Virus record (IMG/VR): IMGVR_UViG_3300042484_000590
Span: 1 to 22,562 of that record
Strand: one strand, 5' to 3'
Source: a virus
DNA: 22,562 nucleotides
Each line of letters starts with the position of its first letter. Position 1 is the first letter of the stretch. Shown one piece after another: positions 17,836 through 22,562 of this stretch. The position numbers were made by a program, and so were the translations under genes. The notes beneath the pieces are model-generated. The model did not search any database. It worked only from the letters and a program-made list of their open reading frames with translations, and was not told the origin of the DNA.

Positions 17836-18021
17836 ATGATGACCCTCGAACAGATACGCCAAGCCCTTTCCGACCGAATGCCGATCAAGGTGGCAGAGGC
17901 AACAGGGCTGCACTACAACACTATCCGCCAGGTGCGCGATAACCCAGAGGCAAACCCCACGCACAAGGTCTTGCAGGCTTTGTCGGACTATTTGGAAAGC
18001 CGGAAGGTGACGCATGGCTGA
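17836..18021 (+). CDS. Small HTH DNA-binding protein (61 aa)
   Basis: The start is ATG 17836 (or the adjacent in-frame ATG 17839), with AAGGA seven bases upstream; a longer frame begins in the promoter region and is disfavoured. The peptide begins MMTLEQIRQALSDRMPIKVA and continues EATGLHYNTIRQVRDNPEA, then HKVLQALSDYLESRK. The segment KVAEATGLHYNTIRQVRDN has the helix-turn-helix pattern (Ala and Gly at the expected places), and the whole is about the size of a Cro protein. It follows the divergent promoters and overlaps the primase-helicase start by eight bases. It probably binds the operator just upstream and controls leftward and/or rightward early transcription. Confidence 0.75.
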   Translation: MMTLEQIRQALSDRMPIKVAEATGLHYNTIRQVRDNPEANPTHKVLQALSDYLESRKVTHG

Positions 18022-20029
18022 CCTCTCAAACGTATTTGGCGGCCCTTGGTCGCCACCACCAGAGAAAATCGTTGCATCTCCAGAGGCGCAACTTAAAGAC
18101 GCTATGAAGGCGGCAGGCTTAGAGCCACCAGATCACATTGAGATGGACGGCAAGATTCACCGCTTTAAGTCGGGCACCAAAGGCAAGCCAGGTATTGACA
18201 AGCCCGGTTGGTACTTGGTGTTTGGTGATGGCATCCCAGCGGGGCGCTTCGGCTGCTGGAGGGCAGGCATCGAGGCCACTTTCAGGGCAGACGTTGGCCG
18301 CAAGCTCACGCACACTGAGGAAATGGTGCATGTCAAGCGCCTGGCCGAGTCAAAAGCCGTGCGAGATGCAGAGATCATTCGCCAGCACCAAGTCGCCAGC
18401 GAGACAGTTGAGCAAATTTGGGCCACAGCAAACCCGGCCAGCCCCGAGCACCCCTACTTGTCCAACAAAGGCATTGGCGTGCATGGCGCACGCATTACGG
18501 GTGACGGTCGCCTCATGGTGCCTTTGTACGATCAGGACGGCAGTTTGAGCACGCTCCAGTACATTGCCCACGATGGCGGCAAGCTCTATCACCCTGGTGG
18601 CCAGACTGGAGGTAAATTCTGGCAACTAGGCTCACTGGATGAGCCTGGGCCGCTTTATGTGGCCGAAGGCTTTGCCACAGCAGCCACCATTCACGAAACC
18701 ACCAACCGCCCCGTCATCGTGGCCTACAGTGCCAGCAACCTTGTCCCCGTCACAAGCAAGTTGCGCGAGATGCACGGCCCAGCCCAAGAGATCGTGATCG
18801 TGGCCGATAACGACGCCTCCGGTGTTGGCCAGCGTTACGCCGAGCAGGCCAGTGCCAAGTACGGCGCACGCACGGTAACCCCACCAGTCCAAGGTGATGC
18901 CAACGATTATGTGCAGTCTGGAAACGACTTAGCCAGCCTTCTTGCACCAACACATGATGATTGGCTAATCCCTGCCGATGAGTTCTCGGCCCAGCCCAGC
19001 CCCATCTCGTGGCTGGTCAAACGCTGGATTCAGGACCAAGCCCTCGTCATGGTCCACGGCCCATCAGGAGGCGGCAAGACTTTCGTGGTGCTGGACTGGT
19101 GCCTGCGCATTGCCAGCAGCACCCCAGACTGGTGCGGCAACAAAGTGCGCCCCGGTCACGTGGTCTATCTGGCCGGCGAAGGCCACCACGGCCTAAAAGG
19201 CCGAATCGCCGCTTGGAAGCACCACCATCAATCAGGCAAACTCAACATGTGGCTCTCCAAGCACGGCTGTGACCTCAACACCCCCGCTGGCTACCTCAAG
19301 GTGCTTGAGCACATCAGGATGCTGCCCGAAACCCCCAAGGTTGTGGTGGTCGATACCTTGCACAGATTCCTTGCCGGAGACGAGAACAGCGCCCAGGACG
19401 CCAAGACCATGCTTGACGCCTGCGCCAACCTGATGATGGAGTTCAACTGCACCGTCATTCTGGTTCACCACACAGGCGTCTCCGATGAGGCCCAGCACCG
19501 TGCCCGAGGCTCAAGCGCCTGGCGAGGCGCACTCGACATTGAGATCAGCGTCATCCCCGGCAAAGACAACCAGCCCATGCAACTGGTCCAGCGCAAGTCC
19601 AAAGACGCCGAAATGGCCGAGCCAATCCACCTCAACCTCCAACAAGTCACCATCCCAGGCTGGTACGACGAGGACAACCAACCCGTCACCAGTGCCATCA
19701 CCACCCAAGCCGAAGCCCCAGCCGCACCCACCAAGAAAGACTCCAAGATTGATGGCCACCGAAAGACTTGGGAAAACGCTTGGTGGGCATCCGGCGCCGA
19801 GGTCAGGGATGACCTGCCCTACCTCAGTCGCTCAGCCCTCAAAGACAAACTGACCCAAGACGGCAACGCCGAGCGCACCGTGCGCAACATGATCAACCCG
19901 TCCTATAACGACAAACTGATCGGTGCGCTGCTCCAGGCTGACATGATCCAGAATACCGAACACGGGTGGATCATGGTCGATGAGGTCAACGCCAGTAGTA
20001 TGCTGTTGCGGAAAAACGACTGTGGATAA
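18014..20029 (+). CDS. Primase-helicase (Toprim plus RecA-fold helicase)
   Basis: A 671-residue two-domain replication protein. The N-terminal part ends in a Toprim domain: YVAEGF with E218 and VADNDASG with D265/D267 are its metal-binding residues, as in phage and plasmid primases. The C-terminal part is a RepA/AAA_25-type helicase: Walker A GPSGGGKT (349-356), Walker B VVVVD (443-447) and VILVHHTG (481-488). No clear N-terminal zinc-finger CxxC is seen, so template recognition may depend on other residues or a partner. A final segment (about 575-671) may be a winged-helix-like tail. It would unwind DNA and make primers at the fork. Its TAA stop lies inside a DnaA box of the candidate origin directly downstream. 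It overlaps the HTH gene by eight bases. Confidence 0.88.
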   Translation: MADLSNVFGGPWSPPPEKIVASPEAQLKDAMKAAGLEPPDHIEMDGKIHRFKSGTKGKPGIDKPGWYLVFGDGIPAGRFGCWRAGIEATFRADVGRKLTHTEEMVHVKRLAESKAVRDAEIIRQHQVASETVEQIWATANPASPEHPYLSNKGIGVHGARITGDGRLMVPLYDQDGSLSTLQYIAHDGGKLYHPGGQTGGKFWQLGSLDEPGPLYVAEGFATAATIHETTNRPVIVAYSASNLVPVTSKLREMHGPAQEIVIVADNDASGVGQRYAEQASAKYGARTVTPPVQGDANDYVQSGNDLASLLAPTHDDWLIPADEFSAQPSPISWLVKRWIQDQALVMVHGPSGGGKTFVVLDWCLRIASSTPDWCGNKVRPGHVVYLAGEGHHGLKGRIAAWKHHHQSGKLNMWLSKHGCDLNTPAGYLKVLEHIRMLPETPKVVVVDTLHRFLAGDENSAQDAKTMLDACANLMMEFNCTVILVHHTGVSDEAQHRARGSSAWRGALDIEISVIPGKDNQPMQLVQRKSKDAEMAEPIHLNLQQVTIPGWYDEDNQPVTSAITTQAEAPAAPTKKDSKIDGHRKTWENAWWASGAEVRDDLPYLSRSALKDKLTQDGNAERTVRNMINPSYNDKLIGALLQADMIQNTEHGWIMVDEVNASSMLLRKNDCG

Positions 20030-20040
20030 CCTGTGGATAA
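20021..20040 (+). promoter_or_regulatory. Two DnaA boxes (TGTGGATAA) 11 bp apart
   Basis: TGTGGATAA occurs at 20021-20029 and 20032-20040, each a perfect complement of the consensus TTATCCACA. The first contains the primase-helicase stop codon. The 11-bp spacing puts both on the same face of the helix. Confidence 0.75.
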
Positions 20041-20051
20041 CTTTTATTTGG

Positions 20052-20095
20052 TTGACCCTAAATGACCCTAGGGTCAAGTTTAGGGTTAGGGTCAA
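20052..20095. repeat. Nested palindrome I of TGACCC/GGGTCA half-sites
   Basis: The perfect 14-bp palindrome TGACCCTAGGGTCA (20063-20076) is enclosed by TTGACCCTAA (20052-20061) and its exact inverted copy TTAGGGTCAA (20086-20095). Half-sites lie at 20053, 20063 (forward), 20071 and 20089 (inverted). It looks like a binding array for a dimeric initiator or regulator. Confidence 0.8.
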
Positions 20096-20118
20096 AAATG
20101 GGCAAAACAGCGCCAAAG

Positions 20119-20166
20119 TTGACCCTCCCTGACCCCCAACCCTTTAGGGTTGGGGTCAAGGGTCAA
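20119..20166. repeat. Nested palindrome II of TGACCC/GGGTCA half-sites, large hairpin
   Basis: TTGACCCT (20119-20126) pairs with AGGGTCAA (20159-20166); inside, TGACCCC (20130-20136) pairs with GGGGTCA (20152-20158), and AACCCT (20138-20143) with AGGGTT (20146-20151), leaving a TT loop. This gives a 21-bp stem with a 3-nt and a 1-nt bulge. Half-site order (two forward, two inverted) repeats that of palindrome I. No T-run follows, so it is not a normal terminator. Confidence 0.8.
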
Positions 20167-20190
20167 GGCGTTGCAGGGGTTTTTGGGGTT

Positions 20191-20221
20191 GCTGAGTTTT
20201 TTGGACTCAGCCTGTGGATAA
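20191..20221 (+). promoter_or_regulatory. Short hairpin followed by a third perfect DnaA box
   Basis: GCTGAGT (20191-20197) pairs with ACTCAGC (20205-20211). TGTGGATAA lies at 20213-20221, immediately before an AT-rich stretch (20221-20250) that could serve as an unwinding element if this is an origin. Confidence 0.6.
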
Positions 20222-20250
20222 CTTTTCTAGTTCAATGACGTTTTTGATAT

Positions 20251-20279
20251 GGTGACCTTTCTTGGTCGCCTACTTTTTT
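20251..20279 (+). terminator. Probable rho-independent terminator after the primase operon
   Basis: GGTGACC (20251-20257) pairs with GGTCGCC (20264-20270) through one G-T pair around a 6-nt loop and is followed by TACTTTTTT. It would separate the rightward primase transcript from the small gene starting only a few bases later. Confidence 0.6.
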
Positions 20280-20284
20280 GAGAG

Positions 20285-20512
20285 ATGGCAATGGTCGGCA
20301 AAGCAACTCCAACGGTTAAGTACTTTCAGCGCACCCTTGGTGATGCTGAACGCGCCATCTTGCTGGCGGCAGGCAGTGGCGATATGTCCGCGGGCTTCAT
20401 GGAGGTCATCGATACCTACCGCCATTTCTACAATCTTGGATTGCGGCCCGATACACCGCTTGAGAGCGTTATCCTTGTCATCCCACAGACTCAACATGAT
20501 GGTGGCTTGTAG
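20285..20512 (+). CDS. Small hypothetical protein (75 aa) inside the candidate origin region
   Basis: The frame opens at ATG 20285; a second ATG at 20291 has GAGAG at a better distance (six bases) and may be the real start. The product contains TVKYFQRTLGDAERAILLAA, then GSGDMSAGFMEVIDTYRHFY and NLGLRPDTPLESVILVIPQT. The pattern LLAAGxGDMSAGFxEVI..Y is helical and looks like a conserved short phage family, possibly DNA-binding, but I cannot name it. It lies between DnaA boxes on both sides and follows a terminator, so it needs its own promoter or read-through. Coding quality is reasonable; function unknown. Confidence 0.6.
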   Translation: MAMVGKATPTVKYFQRTLGDAERAILLAAGSGDMSAGFMEVIDTYRHFYNLGLRPDTPLESVILVIPQTQHDGGL

Positions 20513-20584
20513 GCCCGATTTGAGGCCTTGGTGAGGCATTGGTGATGGTGAGATGGGTGGATGTTTTAAAGATGAATTGTTGAA

Positions 20585-20599
20585 TGAGAATCATTCTCA
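20585..20599. promoter_or_regulatory. Fur-box-like palindrome
   Basis: TGAGAATCATTCTCA is a perfect 7-1-7 inverted repeat differing from the Fur consensus TGATAATNATTATCA by one symmetrical base in each arm. The same form occurs in betaproteobacterial Fur boxes to my knowledge. No iron-related gene adjoins it, so it may serve another dimeric regulator. Confidence 0.4.
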
Positions 20600-20676
20600 A
20601 TTGGAAATGGTCCCCCAAGGATGGACCATCCGCCCCTTTCTCATTTTTCTTTCCCCGATTTTCCCAGCCGACCGAG

Positions 20677-20765
20677 TTATCCACAGCCCAAATACAAAAC
20701 TTATCCACAGATTGCGGTGCATAACCCTATGCTGTTGCAGTTGGTATTCCTTTTTCTGTGCATAA
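20677..20765 (+). promoter_or_regulatory. Second DnaA-box cluster
   Basis: TTATCCACA occurs at 20677-20685 and 20701-20709. On the opposite strand TTATGCACA occurs at 20765-20757, and a one-mismatch copy at 20724-20716. The orientation is inverted relative to the first cluster, so the two groups face each other across about 450 bp. Confidence 0.7.
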
Positions 20766-20932
20766 CTCAGGATCGACTTTACATAATGGACGTTGTGCGA
20801 AGTAGAAACGGGTAAACCCTAGGAACTGACGACTTTTGATGGGGGGGGAGGGGGTCGGTCGTTGTTGTGAATGTTGATGTACCCTCCCCCGTTCTGAAAA
20901 AGCTAAAATAGCGAAAACTCCGAAAGGGTAAA

Positions 20933-21268
20933 GTGAAAAAAAAGCAAAGCGCAGTGCAGATGACGATCCAAAGGTACGCAGAGAACCCGCCTGCGATCCT
21001 GCCAAAGACGGATCACCAACGCATCAAGGAGCTGAAAGAGCTGATGATCAGGTCTGGCGGCAAGGATGTCGCCGAGAAGGTGATCCAGATTGCGCTCAAC
21101 GATGAGCACCCCGGTCAGATGGCGGCGCTGAAGATGTGCATGGACAGGACGCTGCCGATAGGTATGTTCGAGAAGGACAAGAACCAGCGCAGCGCCATCA
21201 CGATCAACATCACGGGCCTGGGCGAGACGCCGACGGTCATTGAGCCAGAGGATGTTACGGATGTCTGA
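20933..21268 (+). CDS. terS: Terminase small subunit (probable)
   Basis: The start is the GTG at 20933, preceded by AAAGGG; no ATG is placed better. The 111-residue product starts with a basic segment (MKKKQSAVQMTIQRYAENPP), then AILPKTDHQRIKELKELMIR and SGGKDVAEKVIQIALNDEHP, a helical domain, and ends in a Thr/Ile-rich strand-forming tail (RSAITINITGLGETPTV). It lies directly before and overlaps the large terminase gene, where the small subunit is expected, and its sequence looks like the conserved TerL-upstream proteins of environmental podoviruses. TerS recognises the packaging site and forms a ring. A classical HTH is not obvious, so the assignment depends mainly on position and pattern. 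Confidence 0.7.
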   Translation: MKKKQSAVQMTIQRYAENPPAILPKTDHQRIKELKELMIRSGGKDVAEKVIQIALNDEHPGQMAALKMCMDRTLPIGMFEKDKNQRSAITINITGLGETPTVIEPEDVTDV

Positions 21269-22520
21269 CCTCAACTTCTCCCTACTGCCATGGCAACAGC
21301 AGGTTTATTCTGACCAGACGCGATTTAAAGTGATCGCCGCCGGGCGGCGCTGTGGGAAGTCGAGACTCGCCGCGACGACACTGATCATTGAGGCGCTCAA
21401 GTGCCCACCGGGCTCGGCCGTGCTGTACGTCAGCCCAACGATGGGGCAGTCGCGGCAGATCATCTGGGACTTGTTGCTGGACCTCGGGCGAGACGTGATC
21501 CAGTCGAGCCACGTCAACAACTTGGACATCACGATGGTCAACGGCGCGCGTATCTACGTTAGGGGCGCAGACCGACCCGACACGCTGCGAGGCGTCTCCC
21601 TAACCTACGCAGTTCTGGATGAGGTGGCCGACATCAAGCCAGAGGCGTGGGAGCAGGTCATTCGGGCCAGCTTGTCAGACAGGAAGGGCCGAGGGATGTT
21701 CATCGGCACGCCCAAAGGGCGCAACTGGTTTCACGACCTGTGGAAGCTGGGGCAGGATAACCAAGACAGCGACTGGAAAAGCTGGCACTTCACCACGCAG
21801 GACAACCCGCTGATCGACCCCACCGAGATTGAGTCAGCGAAGAAGACACTGAGTACGTTTGCGTTCAAGCAGGAATACCTGGCCAGCTTCAGCAATGCGG
21901 GCGCGGATGTGTTCAAAGAGGAGTGGATCAAGTACGGCGAGGAGCCGGACTACGGGAGCTACTTCGTGGCGGTGGACTTGGCCGGGTTTGAGGAAGTGGC
22001 CAAGCAGGCGGCGAACAGCAAAAAGCGGCTGGATGAGTCGGCGATTGCGGTGGTCAAGGTCACGGACGACGGCAAATGGTTCGTCAAAGAGATCGAGCAC
22101 GGGCGCTGGGATATCCGTGAGACAGCCGCCAAGATACTGATGAAGATGCGCGACTACCGGCCACTGTCCATCGGGATCGAGAGAGGGGCGCTAAAAAACG
22201 CGGTTTTGCCGTATTTGAGCGATCTGATGCGGAAAAACAACGTGTACAGCCACATCGTGGATTTGACGCACGGCAACCGGAAGAAAACGGACCGGGTGAT
22301 TTGGTCTTTGCAGGGGCGGTTTGAACACGGTAGAATCGTCCTGAACAGCGAGGAGAACTGGGACACGTTCGTGGACCAGCTTTTGATGTTTCCGTCGCAG
22401 GGCGTTCACGACGACCTGCCGGACGCGCTGTCGTACATCGACCAGTTGGCCGTCACCAGCTACTTTGAAGATGCTGATGACGAGGACTGGCAGCCGATGG
22501 ATGTAATATCGGGGGTATAG
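21261..22520 (+). CDS. terL: Terminase large subunit (ATPase and nuclease)
   Basis: ATG 21261 is preferred: it has AGAGG nine bases upstream and overlaps the TerS stop by eight bases; ATG 21252 and TTG 21240 are also in frame. The 419-residue protein has an N-terminal packaging ATPase with Walker A AGRRCGKS (27-34), Walker B VLDE (118-121) and the coupling region SLSDRKGRGMFIGTPKGRN. The C-terminal RNase H-like nuclease has D239 (VAVDL), E307 (IGIER) and the HDDLPDA motif (D384, D385, D388). This is the Terminase_6-type large subunit that pumps DNA into the prohead and cuts concatemers. A short Lys/Ala-rich insert (about 245-257) follows the first nuclease aspartate. Confidence 0.95.
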   Translation: MSDLNFSLLPWQQQVYSDQTRFKVIAAGRRCGKSRLAATTLIIEALKCPPGSAVLYVSPTMGQSRQIIWDLLLDLGRDVIQSSHVNNLDITMVNGARIYVRGADRPDTLRGVSLTYAVLDEVADIKPEAWEQVIRASLSDRKGRGMFIGTPKGRNWFHDLWKLGQDNQDSDWKSWHFTTQDNPLIDPTEIESAKKTLSTFAFKQEYLASFSNAGADVFKEEWIKYGEEPDYGSYFVAVDLAGFEEVAKQAANSKKRLDESAIAVVKVTDDGKWFVKEIEHGRWDIRETAAKILMKMRDYRPLSIGIERGALKNAVLPYLSDLMRKNNVYSHIVDLTHGNRKKTDRVIWSLQGRFEHGRIVLNSEENWDTFVDQLLMFPSQGVHDDLPDALSYIDQLAVTSYFEDADDEDWQPMDVISGV

Positions 22521-22540
22521 CCACCGACATAGGGGTCAAA

Positions 22541-22562
22541 ATGGATCAAAACGAATTCGATG
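22541..22562 (+). CDS. Start of the next gene (portal by expected order), cut by the window edge
   Basis: An ATG at 22541 with AGGGG five bases upstream opens a frame reading MDQNEFD to the end of the window. In this phage type the portal gene normally follows TerL. Seven residues cannot confirm identity. Confidence 0.4.

Follow-up and report, generated by a model that had tools for sequence, protein, structure and literature searches.

A word-bearing array behind a phage primase-helicase gene, proposed as a replication origin read by the protein's own C-terminal domain

The array of short half-sites that directly follows the primase-helicase gene of this virus is very probably a replication origin at which the phage primase-helicase acts as its own initiator. 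We base this reading on sequence comparison, which supports three points: the array belongs to the primase gene, its repeated word tracks the recognition helix of the protein, and the structure of the second module of the array is conserved. From these we infer binding, melting, priming and origin activity of the array. An iteron array with the primase-helicase as initiator had been among the suggestions of a first-pass annotation of this DNA, and the comparison supports it strongly, the word tracking a predicted C-terminal recognition helix. Throughout, the window is the whole stretch analysed, the 22,562 nucleotides of IMG/VR virus record IMGVR_UViG_3300042484_000590, in which the parts of the locus are as follows:

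17836 to 18021, + strand: small HTH regulator, a conserved neighbour that overlaps the primase start (PHROG transcriptional regulator, 3.8e-10)
18014 to 20029, + strand: primase-helicase of 671 aa, the proposed initiator (Toprim, AAA_25 and predicted C-terminal winged helix)
20053, 20063, 20120 and 20130 on the + strand, 20071, 20089, 20153 and 20160 on the - strand: TGACCC half-sites, exact matches
20052 to 20095, no strand assigned: module I, with half-sites 20053(+), 20063(+), 20071(-) and 20089(-) and a degenerate GGGTTA
20100 to 20107, + strand: GGGCAAAA, 5' of module II, independent of the word; nearly all relatives keep G3-5 C A3-4
20108 to 20173, + strand: module II hairpin (fold z -3.9, covariation, covariance model match)
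20108 to 20114 and 20167 to 20173, + strand: outer stem of module II, CAGCGCC/GGCGTTG in the window
20120(+), 20130(+), 20153(-) and 20160(-): module II half-sites, with unpaired stretches on the 5' side
20134 to 20143 and 20146 to 20155, + strand: inner stem of module II, around TTTA
20167 to 20178, + strand: GGCGTTGCAGGG, the window version of the CGATGC(A/G)GCG-like element that relatives carry 3' of module II

The eight TGACCC half-sites, in ++-- ++-- order over 20053-20165, lie exactly where the first-pass annotation had put them, as do the perfect 14-mer TGACCCTAGGGTCA (20063-20076), the 10-bp perfect inverted arms (20052-20061 and 20086-20095) and the 10-bp spacing of the forward half-sites in both modules. 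TGACCC would be expected 11.4 times in the whole window and 0.06 times in 115 bp, where eight copies are observed (Poisson P for at least eight copies in 115 bp, about 3e-15). The array begins directly after the stop of the primase-helicase gene, and near-identical short sites adjoining the putative initiator gene beyond chance, as in an iteron origin, occur in the window and in its relatives. Nine half-sites (--+++--++ for GGGTCA) are the rule among close relatives, against eight in the window, in which GGGTTA at 20083-20088 replaces the GGGTCA of those relatives. Palindrome I folds better as single-stranded DNA than all of 200 shuffles (z -3.8). Its bare 14-mer is an unspecific search key, present in more than 100 viral contigs, whereas a 24-mer of module II is specific; 5' of module II stands the word-independent GGGGGCAAAA. 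A DNA similarity search of the intergenic region against GenBank phages gave no match. Nor did we find an array of such design described in open papers, which hold precedents for other initiator families; since the literature covered was that of open papers, we put the novelty of the array as 'not found' rather than as proven.

The protein encoded directly upstream combines, like those of the P4 alpha type, a Toprim primase, a helicase and a predicted C-terminal winged helix in a single chain. Its Pfam matches are Toprim_3 (1.7e-13) and AAA_25 (1e-35), with no others, and its PHROG match is DNA primase. The translation carries EGFATA at residues 218-223, which we take to be the P4-type Toprim primase motif, and an AAA_25/RepA-like hexameric helicase part spans residues 320-490. 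The sole PDB sequence match of the protein is RSF1010 RepA (1g8y, E 8e-6), which with AAA_25 indicates a RecA-like SF4 helicase rather than one of SF3; Pfam, giving AAA_25 and Toprim_3 only, likewise showed no homology to the SaPI Rep helicase (DUF927 or D5/Primase_Cterm type). For the C-terminal domain, AlphaFold2 was given the last 125 residues with 54 relatives and returned a model with pLDDT of about 90 over residues 577-666 and the element order H-S-H-H-H-S-S. A Foldseek search with this domain gave no significant fold match (best E 0.15), and VIA-align of the model with ArsR, MarR, histone H1 (linker histone) and RuvB winged helices gave modest Z values of 6-7; we read the domain as a winged helix because of the element order of the model together with these values. 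Two parts of it matter for what follows, the second comprising the predicted recognition helix with its following loop:

19736 to 20014, + strand: predicted C-terminal winged-helix domain, about residues 575-667, the proposed array reader (AlphaFold2 model)
19859 to 19933, + strand: recognition segment, residues 616-640, in which the best word trackers are R621, T622, R624, N625, M626, N628, Y631, D633 and K634

Relatives were fetched with the primase from viral contigs, GenBank phages and one genome per bacterial species. A search for the array beside Toprim-helicase genes of phage and metagenome contigs, proposed in the first-pass annotation, found it behind the primase in about 100 relatives, with its start at the primase stop in nearly every locus; the arrays of L063, L069, L079, L098, L165 and L177 were missed by the automatic word caller and seen by eye. 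Four cultured phages carry it (Salicola CGphi29, Alteromonas XX1924, Alteromonas PB15 and Idiomarinaceae 1N2-2). It is also present in bacterial contigs binned to many phyla, where the MAG assignments may reflect misbinned phage contigs, and once in an isolate genome (Pyramidobacter, L242). The exact module II 24-mer occurs in 50 viral contigs, with the primase directly upstream in all 47 that have enough upstream sequence (46 primase C-termini by pattern and L274 on inspection, the other three contigs being too short). Across 14 genomes or records with a word, the array is the only dense cluster of its own word, no other 200-bp stretch holding more than two copies. From one relative to another the gene 3' of the array varies (terminase-side genes, MazG, a DUF protein and others), so the array belongs to the primase and not to the gene of a 75-aa protein or to the terminase. 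That 75-aa protein had been the other candidate initiator of the first-pass annotation, and because the gene behind the array differs among relatives the suggestion finds no support.

In one clade, L130-L169 (L130, L149, L151 and relatives), the primase is present with no array behind its gene, and no clear array was seen elsewhere in G015, the one 37-kb member checked. The recognition segment of this clade is a different one, GISNFPG..AAGSRRNLIDGK, and a small ORF follows the primase instead of the array. The Salicola phage CGphi29 (L207) also carries a TIGR-TasH locus (PMC12045711), which has no relation to the array as far as seen.

The word changes between groups and the layout stays. The window group uses GGGTCA/TGACCC, and others use AGGGGG, GGTAAC, GGGAAC, GGTACA, GGTTCA, GGGACA, TGGACAA, GGTACG and more, which makes about 20 word classes in the first set, with further classes in bacterial contigs; the class borders are partly a matter of judgement because some words are near-shifts of one another. 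On a tree of the catalytic part (residues 1-555; a quick tree with some long branches) the word changed at least 32 times. Module II geometry is nevertheless constant in most arrays, with the inner sites 21-23 bp apart, the left pair 9-10 bp and the right pair 7-9 bp. Conservation of the half-sites in relatives, to which the first-pass annotation had tied its proposal, had an unexpected outcome: the word itself is not conserved across the family, but all sites change in concert with the helix proposed to read them, and this concerted change strengthens a reading in terms of a protein and its sites. In the GGTACG group (L172-L193) the word forms part of a longer repeat that is conserved, AAACCGTACCAAA, and the actual site may therefore exceed six bases there.

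The C-terminal domain is most likely the reader that binds these words. Pairs of relatives with the same word share residues 616-640 beyond their relatedness (residual +0.31, permutation p 0.0005, corrected for identity over residues 1-560, the permutation removing shared ancestry only partly). The N-terminus, Toprim and AAA parts showed no word tracking in the permutation test (p 0.37-0.83), and the parts of the C-terminal domain around 616-640 track the word less than that segment. The same-word AUC of residues 616-640 was 0.87 at relatedness below 70% (0.51 for AAA and 0.51 for Toprim), 0.98 at 70-85% (0.75 and 0.64) and 0.90 above 85% (0.49 and 0.43). Because the permutation leaves some shared ancestry, recurrence and contrasts between nearly constant proteins weigh more. 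GRKxRTIEND-like helices pair with AGGGGG/GGGGGT in the distant lineages L037, L103, L118 and L155, and SEASAK.Y.KPS-like helices pair with GGTAAC in the distant lineages L048, L146, L171 and L179. A clean exchange separates L041 from L052, which are 100% identical over residues 1-560 and 16% identical over 616-640, and whose words are AGGGGG and GGTAAC, respectively. The switch between L061 and L070 is finer: the proteins are 98% identical, three of the 25 recognition residues differ, and the words are GGTAAC and GGGAAC.

Module II carries a conserved fold. The first-pass annotation had described its palindrome II as a bulged stem of 21 bp; the bulged hairpin is supported, but the stem is longer, since the outer stem had been omitted. 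As single-stranded DNA, module II folds better than all of 200 shuffles (z -3.9), and in nearly every word class examined it gives a single long hairpin in the order outer stem, unpaired stretch on the 5' side, word 1, unpaired stretch on the 5' side, word 2 and inner stem around TTTA. The outer stem varies in sequence (CCATAAA/TTTATGG in L172, ATGGGGG/CCCCCAT in L171). RNAalifold reports double changes in 18 of 22 pairs, outer stem included, and pair counts give two-sided changes throughout the inner stem, where the pairs are biased by the selection of hairpins for Watson-Crick arms. From 15 sequences with four words we trained a covariance model, which at E 0.01 or better recovered module II in 37 held-out loci; a sequence-only version of the alignment recovered 12. 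By their match coordinates, all 37 lie behind the primase and on its + strand. The match in the window (20098-20180, E 8e-14) is to a model trained on a near-identical sequence.

A structured RNA at the 3' end of the primase transcript, serving autoregulation, RNA stability or as primer RNA and maybe bound by the C-terminal domain, would account for a conserved bulged hairpin with compensatory changes in both stems and for the G-U pairs in its outer stem, and is the most serious alternative. We nevertheless consider it improbable, as the words are repeated both directly and inversely and all copies change together, neither of which a stem needs, and module I has no comparable shared fold. G-U pairs make up only 4% of the hairpin pairs, a figure biased by the picking of hairpins through Watson-Crick pairing, both strands of the hairpin fold about equally well, and an Rfam search gave no family above the gathering score, with sub-threshold chance matches only. 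Strand asymmetry of folding gave no clear answer as a discriminator between RNA and single-stranded DNA and was rejected for that use.

A packaging site (cos or pac) for the small terminase encoded 0.8 kb downstream is very unlikely. The gene of the small terminase does lie close by in the window and in CGphi29 (0.8-1.9 kb downstream), but XX1924 and PB15 have their terminase 5-6 kb away, beyond many other genes, with the array still next to the primase, and we rejected a terminase site on this gene neighbourhood; moreover, it is the primase C-terminus that tracks the word. We give equally little credence to a role as operator or partition-like site of the small HTH protein whose gene precedes that of the primase. 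The array does not lie at a promoter of the HTH gene, and the HTH sequence, tried as reader, failed to track the word (residual -0.03, p 0.73, 20 taxa), whereas the primase recognition segment tracks it in the same taxa; this outweighs the facts that the HTH gene is a conserved neighbour and that HTH dimers typically use inverted half-sites. Least credible is a repeat cluster or terminator without a specific reader, for although transcripts often end at inverted repeats after a stop codon, the geometry is conserved while the word changes, a given word recurs in distant lineages together with a given recognition helix, and a T-run directly after the hairpin is absent in relatives.

Exact DnaA boxes, absent from the first-pass annotation, frame the array on both sides:

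20021 to 20029, - strand: DnaA box TTATCCACA, exact match, overlapping the primase stop codon
20032 to 20040, - strand: DnaA box TTATCCACA, exact match
20213 to 20221, - strand: DnaA box TTATCCACA, exact match, downstream of the array
20677 to 20685 and 20701 to 20709, + strand: two more DnaA boxes TTATCCACA, exact matches

Of 98 arrays, 36 have at least two such boxes; of 2017 random intervals, 3 do. They are found in the window and in most of the GGGTCA, GGTAAC and GGGAAC groups, and are absent in most other groups. The layout of two boxes before and one after the array is kept (window 20021-20221; L048, L052 and L061), and the orientation of the boxes in the GGTAAC/GGGAAC groups is opposite to that in the GGGTCA group. 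The cumulative GC-skew minimum falls at the array in the window and in G001. Over 18014-22562 of the window the skew turns exactly at the array though the flanking genes run the same way, as it does in G001 but in none of the other complete relatives. In most complete relatives, however, the minimum lies away from the array, often where gene strands diverge, and GC skew was rejected as general evidence for an origin, since it fits the window group only. Two further small elements stand nearby: a hairpin GCTGAGT...ACTCAGC at 20189-20209, between module II and the downstream DnaA box, which is altered or lost in relatives, and, between the 75-aa ORF and the terminase genes, a perfect 7-1-7 palindrome, TGAGAATCATTCTCA, at 20585-20599, with a vague likeness to a Fur box.

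In our model of the array as an origin, the C-terminal winged helix would bind, as iterons, the copies of the word in both modules, just behind its own gene, and the bound protein would assemble hexamers on the DNA. In phages with DnaA boxes flanking the array, host DnaA may help to open the duplex. Once melted, module II would fold as a bulged hairpin, plausibly one at which the helicase and primase domains of the protein itself load or prime.

Together, the predicted winged helix and its array act like a specificity cassette that can be exchanged. We extend this, tentatively, to a hypervariable cassette of winged helix and array on an otherwise constant replication machine, in which the words may define replication compatibility groups of phages and module II may have a dual use; we think this wider proposal possible, although we would not yet favour it. 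A new word would be gained repeatedly within one lineage by joint exchange of domain and array or, alternatively, through one to three changes in the recognition helix and a concerted change at eight to nine sites. The selective pressure would be co-infecting relatives, satellites or host factors that use the same word. The dual use of module II would be as double-stranded binding sites and then, once melted, as a hairpin read for loading or priming.

The origin reading would provide a large phage group that has been little studied, and is known from metagenomes and from contigs of many bacterial phyla, with a likely origin and initiator. How a binding site in multiple copies and its reader change jointly is a long-standing question. 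Here nature provides a series of about 20 or more pairs of word and helix, some one to three residues apart and some clean domain swaps on an identical protein, which opens a direct test of an initiator recognition code and of coordinated change of a protein and multiple DNA sites. If the cassette proposal is true, the words would act as replication compatibility groups of phages.

The primase-helicase and its array are best read as an analogue of phage P4 alpha and of SaPI Rep. P4 alpha has a Toprim primase motif of the EGYATA type and an SF3 helicase. Its winged helix binds the origin repeats, and unwinding and priming by the same protein follow (PMC4234260). As in P4 alpha, a single polypeptide here holds a Toprim primase, a helicase and a C-terminal winged helix, the last of these predicted. 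In contrast to P4, the helicase is RepA/AAA_25-like (SF4) rather than SF3, the sites follow the gene directly and half of them sit within a conserved hairpin, and phages that are almost identical have different words. In RSF1010 (IncQ), RepC reads the iterons of oriV, RepA unwinds and RepB' primes at exposed hairpins (PMC4234260). Iterons plus hairpins (ssi in RSF1010) are common to both systems, but RSF1010 divides among three separate proteins, with another primase type, the functions that appear fused in one here. As the nearest solved relative of the AAA part is RSF1010 RepA, the protein resembles a P4 alpha in which the helicase is of the RepA type.

Both SaPI Rep and SCCmec Cch2 are self-loading initiator helicases whose C-terminal domains read iterons directly downstream of their own genes (PMC7581432). 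The same layout is found here, with the array directly downstream of the putative initiator gene and specificity placed by tracking in the C-terminal domain, the proposed reader. The helicase families are unrelated, primases are separate or of other kinds there, and a hairpin with embedded words, present here, is not known from them. For pRN1 (ORF904) and Bordetella phage BIP-1, a large stem-loop that directly follows a primase-helicase with a C-terminal winged helix serves as origin and has to be intact; the one of pRN1 still works when displaced (PMC4234260). The present locus likewise has a stem-loop directly behind the gene of a primase-helicase with a (predicted) C-terminal winged helix. 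However, pRN1 and BIP-1 have an archaeo-eukaryotic primase and an SF3 helicase, and no iteron structure is reported for them (PMC4234260), whereas iterons and stem-loop are combined here. The iterons of geminivirus Rep keep their position and pattern while their sequence varies between close relatives (PMC12548392), as the layout here is kept while the word varies; with a rolling-circle Rep, an unrelated protein and an unrelated host, this is an evolutionary parallel only. It is the precedents of SaPI Rep, Cch2, pRN1, P4 alpha and RSF1010 that make it plausible to read the array as an origin.
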